Below, piece after piece: positions 43,399 to 44,265 of a stretch of DNA of 64,000 nt. The notes beneath the pieces are model-generated. The model was not told the origin of the DNA. It ran no database searches and saw nothing but the letters and a program-made list of their open reading frames with translations. The position numbers and the translations under genes are program-made. Position 1 is the stretch's first letter, and every line of letters starts with the position of its first letter. Source of the stretch: Gammaproteobacteria bacterium MOLA455 (lineage in GTDB: Bacteria > Pseudomonadota > Gammaproteobacteria > Pseudomonadales > Porticoccaceae); contig AZIN01000001.1 of NCBI GenBank assembly GCA_000511875.1, forward strand, positions 124,001 to 188,000, given 5' to 3'.

Positions 43399-43430
43399 CC
43401 TCTTTTTTACTGGTTTATAGGCTTATGCTG

Positions 43431-43506
43431 TGGTCTCCCCTTCAGGAGTCGAACCTGAAATTCAAGCTTAGGAGGCTAGCGTGATATCCAATTTCACCAA
43501 GGGGAG
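43431..43506 (-). tRNA. tRNA-Arg (anticodon CCT)
   Basis: On the minus strand a 76-nt cloverleaf: acceptor CTCCCCT with AGGGGAG, anticodon loop CTCCTAA with CCT, T-loop TTCGACT, and ACCA encoded at the end. It resembles E. coli argW throughout. The anticodon stem CTAGC/GCTTG has one T-T mismatch, which is unusual. This tRNA decodes AGG. Confidence 0.93.
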
Positions 43507-43514
43507 GCGCGGGC

Positions 43515-43520
43515 ATTATA
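43515..43520 (-). promoter_or_regulatory. Candidate -10 element of tRNA-Arg
   Basis: On the minus strand TATAAT is followed by the GC-rich GCCCGCG, 8 bp before the tRNA 5' end. The -35 is poor (TATTGA with a 17-bp spacer). The short distance means transcription would start almost at the mature end. Confidence 0.55.
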
Positions 43521-43729
43521 GCGAAAAGATCGTTGATTCAATACTAGAAGAGCCCCGAAACAATGCCTGTTGAAAAAATCATAGATGACTTGTTTTGATA
43601 ACGGCGGCTTAAATCTCGATAACTGATTAGATTCTATTCATGTACAAATAGATAGAGATGTTTAATATAAAAATAATACTCGAATTAGCAGTATCAGCGG
43701 CGGAGATGGTAATGGCTGCTACTGAAATC

Positions 43730-43796
43730 GCTAGGGGTCTCACTCTATCTGGCCGCATACAAAAGCCGCATACAAAAAAGGCCCCTTAAAAAGGGG
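43730..43796. repeat. Direct repeat copy B with a broken terminator hairpin
   Basis: It begins with the same 35 bases as copy A at 44069 (GCTAGGGGTCTCACTCTATC, GGCCGCATACAAAA) and ends in GGCCCCTTAAAAAGGGG. Relative to copy A it carries an extra 13-bp tandem duplication GCCGCATACAAAA and lacks the closing CCTTTTTT arm of the terminator. It marks the left boundary of the 75-bp repeat array. Confidence 0.9.
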
Positions 43797-43844
43797 TAGT
43801 TTCGGTTATAGGGTTTGAGTTCTGGGGGAAGGGATTGATTGTTG

Positions 43845-43862
43845 GCAGCCTTAGGGCTGCCA
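43845..43862. repeat. Inverted repeat at the edge of the 75-bp array
   Basis: TTGGCAGCC-TTA-GGGCTGCCA forms a hairpin with a perfect 7-bp core GGCAGCC/GGCTGCC. It adjoins the first copy of the 75-bp repeat and resembles the third hairpin of that repeat (CAGCC-TATG-GGCTG) in its core, so it may be a diverged part of a further unit. Confidence 0.7.
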
Positions 43863-43865
43863 GCA

Positions 43866-44057
43866 AGTCCTGCGGACCGCCGGTGGCGTCCAAAATGCCT
43901 TCGCATTTAGTGATAGATTTCAGCCTATGGGCTGAGATCTAGTCCTGAGGACCGCCGGTGGCGTCCAAAATGCCTTCGCATTTAGTGATAGATTTCAGCC
44001 TATGGGCTGAGATCTAGTCCTGCGGACCGCCGGTGGCGTCCAAAATGCCTTCGCATT
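43866..44057. repeat. 75-bp tandem repeat array with three hairpins per unit
   Basis: Two full units (43866-43940, 43941-44015) and a 42-bp partial third (44016-44057) follow head to tail with period 75 bp. They are identical except for one base (TGCGG in units 1 and 3, TGAGG in unit 2). Each full unit holds three inverted repeats in order: GGAC(C)GCC-GGT-GGCGTCC, AAATGC-CTTC-GCATTT and GATTTCAGCC-TATG-GGCTGAGATC (10-bp stem, one G-T pair). No reading frame covers it. It is between tRNA-Ser and tRNA-Arg, both read from the minus strand. Its function is unknown; it is not a CRISPR since there are no spacers. Confidence 0.92.
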
Positions 44058-44068
44058 TTGTCGAACCT

Positions 44069-44122
44069 GCTAGGGGTCTCACTCTATCTGGCCGCATACA
44101 AAAAAGGCCCCTTAAAAAGGGG
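44069..44122. repeat. Direct repeat copy A including the tRNA-Ser terminator arm
   Basis: It shares 35 exact bases with copy B (43730) and continues into the intact terminator stem next to tRNA-Ser. The two copies flank the 75-bp array in the same orientation, so the array plus one copy looks like the product of a segment duplication. Confidence 0.9.
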
Positions 44123-44131
44123 CCTTTTTTG
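44100..44131. terminator. Terminator of tRNA-Ser, symmetric
   Basis: AAAAAAGGCCCCTT pairs with AAGGGGCCTTTTTT around AAA. The stem is long and the flanking A and T tracts make it work in either direction. It begins 3 bp after the CCA end of tRNA-Ser as read on the minus strand. Confidence 0.92.
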
Positions 44132-44133
44132 TA

Positions 44134-44224
44134 TGGCGGTGGGATAGGGATTCGAACCCTAGTTAGGCTATTAACCTAAGCCAGTTTTCAAGACTGGTGC
44201 ATTCAACCGCTCTGCCATCCCACC
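44134..44224 (-). tRNA. tRNA-Ser (anticodon TGA)
   Basis: A 91-nt class II tRNA on the minus strand: acceptor GGTGGGAT region pairs with ATCCCACC, the anticodon loop reads CTTGAAA with TGA, a long variable arm (TAGGTTAATAGCCTA) follows, the T-loop is TTCGAAT, and GCCA is encoded. It lies 48 bp after the rne stop. Confidence 0.97.
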
Positions 44225-44229
44225 TAATG

Positions 44230-44265
44230 AAGGCGCGATTATACAGCGCCTTTTTGCTAGGACAA
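44230..44265. promoter_or_regulatory. tRNA-Ser promoter with the -10 in a hairpin loop
   Basis: On the minus strand, TTGTCC (44265-44260), a 16-bp spacer and TATAAT (44243-44238) form a plausible sigma-70 promoter, followed by CGCGCC. The -10 lies in the 9-base loop of a perfect 7-bp inverted repeat, AAGGCGC (44230-44236) with GCGCCTT (44246-44252). Read on the + strand the same hairpin ends in a run of five T and looks like an intrinsic terminator facing rne. Promoter and terminator roles are both inferred. Confidence 0.65.

Follow-up and report, generated by a model that had tools for sequence, protein, structure and literature searches.

A tandem array behind a tRNA-Ser gene of a gammaproteobacterium: a probable divergent, tripled element of the RtT type

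The tandem array that lies between two tRNA genes of Gammaproteobacteria bacterium MOLA455 is quite probably a tRNA-linked, structured RNA element of the RtT type, in a divergent form. It was analysed within a stretch of 64,000 nucleotides, referred to here as the window. Judged by its layout, the array is a divergent, tripled RtT-type element of tRNA-Ser, which is not recognised by Rfam here. It most likely corresponds to a predicted structured RNA, produced by read-through from the tRNA gene; the array that carries it would be prone to recombination and would spread from one tRNA gene to another. A preliminary description had noted a 75-bp tandem array between two tRNA genes, with units differing by one base, and both points were confirmed by repeat searches and tRNA prediction. 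In TRF, the array spans 43866-44058, with a period of 75, 2.6 copies, 98% matches and a score of 379, and ARAGORN places tRNA-Ser(UGA) at 44134-44224 and tRNA-Arg(CCU) at 43431-43506 on its two sides, both on the minus strand. In the register first used, the first two units share 99% identity, with a single change in 75 bases (TGCGG/TGAGG). The better register consists of three head-to-tail copies, of about 75 bp each, of an element termed here E, on the minus strand at 43836-44060.

Read along the minus strand, the order is tRNA-Ser(UGA), terminator, inverted tRNA 3' half, GGTTCGA, E-E-E and a decayed tRNA tail, with a decayed second terminator and a second inverted tRNA copy further 3'. The tRNA-Ser gene, the host of E, is also found by RF00005 (59.6 bits), and directly 3' of it comes an intrinsic terminator-like hairpin (44095-44135) made of a 19-bp perfect inverted repeat, a 3-nt loop and a T-run. 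The feature extends past the array as first described, to a 26-nt segment at 44070-44095 that repeats the tRNA-Ser 3' half as its reverse complement and forms the 5' strand of P1 and P2. This copy is diverged, and it is cleaner at the corresponding locus of the relative G001 than in the window. The GGTTCGA stub at 44061-44067 is, in sequence, the 5' side of a tRNA T-arm with its loop.

The three E copies, as well as their relatives, were scored with two covariance models, R1 built from the own-genome copies and R2 from 112 matches in pattern loci of named genomes; the structure of R2 leans to R1, because its alignment was fitted to R1, which includes the window copies. Copy 1 (43986-44060), with four hairpins termed P3 to P6, was found by repeat search and reaches 94.8 bits with R1 and 65.9 bits with R2 (E=3e-14). 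Copy 2 (43911-43985), also found by repeat search and joined head-to-tail at ATC|ACTAAATGC, scores 79.6 bits with R1 and is not among the two R2 matches of the window. Copy 3 (43836-43910) has a different P6 hairpin with its pairing kept (R1 85.9 bits, R2 52.0 bits). After this last E comes AATCCCTTCCCCCA (43823-43836), a decayed copy of the tRNA 3' tail, identified by comparison with the intact tails of relatives. The decayed second terminator copy (43769-43796) retains, over a 28-nt arm, 89% complementarity to the arm of the intact terminator. The 44070-44095 inverted copy is then repeated letter for letter at 43731-43756, where no E stands behind it (exact 26-nt repeat; 58-nt direct repeat).

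The same anatomy was found in relatives behind several tRNA isotypes, in many gammaproteobacteria and in the E. coli rttR. Their standard order is tRNA, terminator, inverted tRNA 3' half, GGTTCGA, E, and AATCC with the rest of the host tRNA 3' end, a further terminator often coming after the unit. A module between GGTTCGA and a tRNA 3' end, behind a same-strand tRNA, is present in the window, where the tail is decayed, and intact in relatives. The inverted spacer was compared with tRNAs at 61 loci, restricted to matches with a tRNA 30-110 nt upstream. Its mean score is 24.8 against the reverse complement of its own tRNA, versus 15.0 for tRNAs of other amino acids, 13.2 for shuffled sequences and 15.1 in direct orientation, and the own tRNA ranks above every other-amino-acid tRNA in 32 of the 61. 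A TGAGAA linker occurs in 18/66 spacers, versus 0.6 expected from shuffles. On the other side of E, all 17 nt of the own tRNA tail are present in 29/58 cases, versus 0/2322 cross-comparisons. When E is removed in silico, the own T-loop is exactly restored in 28 of the 38 cases where 12 nt or more of the own tail follow (a count unfiltered for paired stem) and not exactly restored at the other 10 junctions. Since its deletion restores the T-loop of the host, E can be located at the T-loop cut point GGTTCG^AATCC. The length of E is 67-108 nt in 38 measured cases. Window-like E-E joints, TCACTAAATGC, are also present in three other genomes (G017, G018 and G023); the junction search also matched the viral loci L350, L352, L353 and L355, none of which is E. 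The inverted tRNA copy and the T-loop cut point had been overlooked in the preliminary description, as had the fourth hairpin.

That description had counted three hairpins per unit, where the fold of aligned copies gives four for one minus-strand unit. The predicted fold of the G001 unit is the closed multi-hairpin form, and in the MFE fold of the entire array of the window not all hairpins stay separate. Once aligned, the nine copies of the own genome display the four hairpins, and some of the pairs are altered at both positions. In these nine copies, 96.3% of the cells of the named structure are paired, while structures slid along the alignment pair 28 to 45%. The 22 doubly changed cells were reached by 0/500 shuffles and the 9 pairs changed on both sides by 2/500; the observed number of further pair types was reached by 33/500. 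The sequence of P6 differs among the nine copies and its pairing is kept. A strand signal was also obtained from stem mismatches flanked by Watson-Crick pairs, with 81 G.T versus 42 A.C on the tRNA strand, against about 40 and 51 in shuffles. This count started from 211 E sequences, of which 201 are at least 60 nt long and 141 non-redundant; its p-value of 0.0006 is optimistic, because the E sequences are mutually related. The G.T excess speaks for constraint on the tRNA strand, either as RNA or as single-stranded DNA. A simple low-complexity repeat, which the first reading had already set aside, is excluded by the fold, the covariation and the recurrence of the unit beside tRNAs. The proposal of a small structured RNA is upheld in part, namely by the compensatory changes and the strand-specific G.T excess.

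No named family had been recognised at the outset; the nearest one is Rfam RtT (RF00391), known as RttR in the E. coli tyrT-tyrV region. The two share a tRNA, a GAACC..GGTTCGA hairpin, a hairpin module with CCCGAAGGG, and AATCC followed by the tRNA 3' end, as well as tandem units on the same strand as the tRNA. In contrast with RtT, the window has a tRNA-Ser host, an intrinsic terminator before the element, E tripled at 75 bp, a first E helix made of CAAAATGC/GCATTTTG and a decayed tail, and it scores under the Rfam cut-off. The RF00391 model indeed does not reach its gathering score of 45 bits in the window, gives nothing at E<=10 in 43400-44260, and yields no own-genome match at E<=0.001; at gathering cut-offs, Rfam finds nothing besides tRNA in the whole window. 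In E. coli K-12, RttR is annotated at L097 1267-1437 and ends at a tRNA-like CCACCA, as does the Rfam match. The Rfam model scores 133 to 138 bits at K-12 rttR and, at two loci with relatives of the window element, 36.9 (L099) and 40.2 (L111). The four K-12 rttR copies are matched in register by R2, weakly (16.4 to 21.2 bits, E 0.005 to 0.08). R2 also matches every one of the ten loci called by RF00391 (L244-L253), with E 0.019 for the poorest of them. R1 reaches loci called as RtT (26.5 bits at L246 and 24.8 bits at L249, for example) but not E. coli, and its matches overlap those of RF00391 in three genomes (G178, G098 and G187). The predicted kinship with RtT is thus well supported by layout and weakly by sequence score.

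A second family, AaHKsRNA22 (RF02902, an Aggregatibacter sRNA), has whole-length matches on the tRNA strand in the own genome; they fall on five copies at four loci, and the hairpin order agrees wherever an alignment was examined. Its cut-off of 39.8 bits is reached neither in the window (21.3 bits) nor at the best own-genome match (28.5 bits), and none of 143 class genomes, the own one counted, exceeds it (best 38.6 bits).

The linkage to tRNA genes was assessed on several sets of loci. In 40 loci from relatives and the own genome, ARAGORN called a tRNA in 32, each on the strand of the best match. A DNA pattern run over named genomes retrieved at least 118 stretches (one follow-on analysis took 98 of 118, that is 99 with a paired stem, minus L229). 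Among the 115 paired-stem matches listed, 86 have a same-strand tRNA within 600 nt, 75 upstream and 14 downstream with 3 counted in both, and none has an opposite-strand tRNA; no tRNA is called within 600 nt of the other 29, 9 of which lie at most 250 nt from the upstream end of their stretch. The 20 listed matches without a paired stem, counted apart, have an upstream tRNA in 7 cases. In a second set (58 loci taken, 57 with a match, 3 of the 58 overlapping earlier loci), a same-strand upstream tRNA is found in 49/57, at a median distance of 74 nt, and is a serine tRNA in 30. Of its 8 loci without a called tRNA, L110, L304 and L310 show by eye a cut-off or uncalled tRNA 3' end. E-like copies away from any called tRNA include L117, L306 and L308. 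The earlier idea of a tRNA-operon spacer element therefore survives in part, since most examined relatives adjoin a same-strand tRNA gene.

The unit, for which a search in own and related genomes had been proposed, was indeed found elsewhere. BLAST with one copy identified six places of the own genome outside the window, in four loci, each with a same-strand tRNA gene or, in one case, just a tRNA 3' tail; R1 gives 16 own-genome matches at E<=0.1, one of them a lone hairpin on the opposite strand. In the own-genome locus L009, the tRNA-Ser at 1427-1515 contains ten N; it is missed by ARAGORN and found by the Rfam tRNA model. R1 matches were obtained in 24/56 genomes, the own one counted, with 17-22 each in G017, G018, G019 and G023 and 9 in G011; the genus member G026, a contiguous assembly of 10 contigs, is without any R1 match. 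At the level of the class, R1 matches 22/274 genomes and R2 88/274 (own genome counted in both), versus 26/143 for Rfam RtT at E<=0.001, 7 of them over the cut-off and the own genome counted, the sample sizes being different. In the phylum sample, R2 matches 52/299 genomes including the own one, many of them from one family outside the class. This family, f210, has many E matches (loci L308, L311-L317, L319 and L321-L324), and an upstream same-strand tRNA (Ser, Gln or Asp) was found in 12 of its 13 loci. The DNA pattern retrieved 11 stretches of viral contigs, of which L348 has a full stem and L349 is clearly E by eye; no tRNA is called near L348 or L349. Following tRNA genes in many gammaproteobacteria and sharing the layout of the E. 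coli RtT RNA, the relatives suggest that this RNA is one member of a large family, tied to tRNAs and probably mobile.

Within the genus, the site behind tRNA-Ser(UGA) is either occupied or empty. E is present there in G000, G001, G011, G017, G018 and G021 (two loci in the latter) and absent, with more than 800 nt visible, in G004, G008, G014, G016, G019 and G020. A homologue of RNase E adjoins the tRNA in 7/7 occupied and 5/6 empty loci (not in G019), so that most occupied and empty sites are the same locus. In G014 and G008, where E is absent, traces of the inverted copy seem to remain. In G002, G007, G010, G012, G013 and G015, the contig stops within tRNA-Ser(UGA), at its end or shortly behind it; in G003, G005, G006, G009 and G022, this tRNA was not found at E<=1e-15, which is uninformative on occupancy. 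E is dispensable, as it is missing behind the same tRNA in six genus members and as G026 has no R1 match. In G021, both tRNA-Ser(UGA) loci (L263 and L286) carry E and the RNase E homologue, perhaps through a mixed assembly. Contigs of fragmented assemblies also end at or inside tRNA-Ser in L262, L273, L281 and L283, probably because repeats break short-read assemblies. As short-read contigs end at such tRNAs, arrays are probably undercounted, and the counts there are lower bounds. Relatives differ in the number of copies, and so do strains of E. coli, where the RtT unit is closely matched in 4655/5426 genomes, at 1-9 places each (median 2); to this extent, the proposal of a recombination-prone repeat holds.

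These features can be combined into a tentative scheme, in which transcription of tRNA-Ser would read through the array and yield an RNA with the inverted copy paired to the tail (helix P1). Such a paired RNA would mimic an acceptor/T-arm, with E where the T-loop would be. It could then be excised by tRNA-processing enzymes, and the E. coli RttR annotation ends exactly at the tRNA-like CCA. Tandem copies would expand or contract by recombination between repeated tRNA tails or E units, and E may get to other tRNA genes via the universal T-arm sequence. Between tRNA-Ser and E, however, stands a strong intrinsic terminator, so that E may rarely be transcribed; P1 and the tRNA tail are decayed in the window, so that its copy may be a relic.

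The best surviving alternative, to which an appreciable probability is given although clearly short of even, is that E is selfish mobile DNA of MITE-like type, which an enzyme acting in trans would place into T-loops in the form of a folded single strand, any RNA being incidental. The occupied and empty tRNA-Ser(UGA) sites, six genomes of each kind in one genus, would fit such mobility, as would the high copy number in G017, G018, G019 and G023, the precise T-loop position and the identical E-E junction in four genomes. However, no shared helper was found. The Y1 transposase occurs in 2/9 E-positive versus 3/9 E-negative genus genomes and reverse transcriptase in 1/9 versus 0/9, which gives no association for either, and neither was found in the own genome. 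At E<=1e-5, G000 (97.8% complete) has no match to PF01797 (Y1) or PF00078 (RVT_1), and of the 8 further E-positive members of the genus searched, 6 are without PF01797 and 7 without PF00078; the nine E-negative genomes were picked by absent R1 matches, and fragmented assemblies can hide arrays. One locus, L306 (1461-2551, G117), does hold a tyrosine recombinase gene (PF00589) between two inverted E-like copies, but tblastn with this recombinase at E<=1e-5 over loci L057-L344 returned only L336, which is the same stretch. Moreover, a simple insertion does not account for flanks that are made of the host's own tRNA sequence. The one-strand G.T excess also argues against this alternative, although single-stranded DNA of that strand would yield it as well.

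Further reaching, and doubtful at present, is the idea that RtT-type elements are an unrecognised class of mobile structured RNA that targets the T-loops of tRNA genes. On arrival, the element would copy the 3' half of the host tRNA in both orientations; its RNA would thereby always close on the host's own acceptor/T-arm, be cut at the tRNA-like CCA, and reach a further tRNA by way of the universal GGTTCGAATCC. If true, these elements would be bacterial counterparts of tRNA-borne retroelements, present in about one third of the sampled genomes of the class.

It is unlikely that E is a 3' external spacer with a local role, either as an attenuator, as a terminator back-up or as an sRNA sponge cut from pre-tRNA-Ser. 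Position and strand would suit such a role, and the accessible text of PMC2965389 mentions rtT-like sequences among BIMEs and describes an rtT-like cluster as the largest enterobacterial attenuator cluster in the study. Yet an intrinsic terminator precedes E, and E follows different tRNAs; a fixed sponge seed in P6 fits poorly, because the P6 sequence varies while its pairing is kept. Ordinary tandem duplication by slippage or recombination, neither functional nor mobile, is very unlikely as a complete explanation, since the exact periods, near-identical units, decayed distal copies and strain-variable copy number (in E. coli as above, and in Salmonella, where a table in the accessible part of PMC2658671 gives a 175-bp rtT VNTR) make it a fair account of how the three copies of the window multiplied, but the covariation, the strand bias and the dispersed relatives with E behind unrelated tRNAs throughout the class largely refute it.

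Two better known kinds of elements resemble E in part. Like REP/BIME sequences associated with Y1 (RAYT) transposases, E is short, palindromic, dispersed and intergenic; unlike them, it is tied to tRNA genes and T-loops, and the own genome is without a Y1 match. The att sites of tyrosine integrases use the tRNA T-loop, and E shares with tRNA-integrating elements a T-loop junction that leaves a complete tRNA 3' end. In contrast to these, it is about 75 nt long and geneless, has an inverted tRNA copy and forms tandem E-E joints.

RtT RNA was reportedly first described in 1991, and little later work on it was found in the accessible literature. In the part of PMC4986893 that is accessible, two RtT RNAs beside tRNA genes of A. 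pleuropneumoniae have Northern signals. As far as their accessible text goes, PMC12306157 lists rttR among sRNAs with REPs, and tRNA-related clusters were removed in PMC2267715. Neither a T-loop insertion nor an inverted tRNA copy is described in the titles and abstract openings searched, which mostly exclude subscription papers, so novelty is unproven. The layout, with E at the T-loop cut point, an inverted tRNA 3' half and a tail of the own tRNA, provides a definition that spans many tRNA isotypes and predicts an RNA processing site. It also raises the question of how a 75-nt module enters the same spot of many tRNA genes, dressed in the sequence of each host.

Some observations were made in passing around the array itself. 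BLAST with 43820-44100 against plasmids gave no match at E<=1e-5. A phage origin was considered and rejected: a distant BLAST of 43700-44230 matched 29 phage records, and all 20 listed cover query positions 7-133, that is the tRNA and terminator, without E. The Synechococcus phages OM868080.1 and PP438427.1 match part of tRNA-Ser and the terminator at 80%, perhaps an integration site. An Rfam sX4 match below cut-off (31.2 bits) covers tRNA-Ser and the terminator at 44077-44228, as also observed in L099 and L111; sX4 may contain a tRNA-Ser transcript.

Unusual settings of E were observed elsewhere. L081 1753-2354 (G019) contains four tandem 175-bp units, each comprising most of a tRNA-Val(GAC); E interrupts the T-loop in three of the four, and ARAGORN calls a tRNA in all four. 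In L085 and L073 (G011 and G018), E lies in the D-loop of 5' copies of tRNA-Ser(GGA) upstream of the intact gene and is followed by a short foldback; E is also upstream of tRNA-Ser in L077 and L086. An 11-bp direct repeat, CCCTCGAGCGG, is found near both ends of the L306 recombinase gene, at a locus without a called tRNA. L117 1501-2535 (G228), again without a called tRNA, has two inverted E-like copies beside matches to group II intron domains D1-D4; as helpers, both this intron and the L306 recombinase were rejected, being single cases only. In L308 1501-1768 (G341), where no tRNA is called nearby, a bacterial small SRP RNA gene begins 86 nt after a copy of E and shares its strand.
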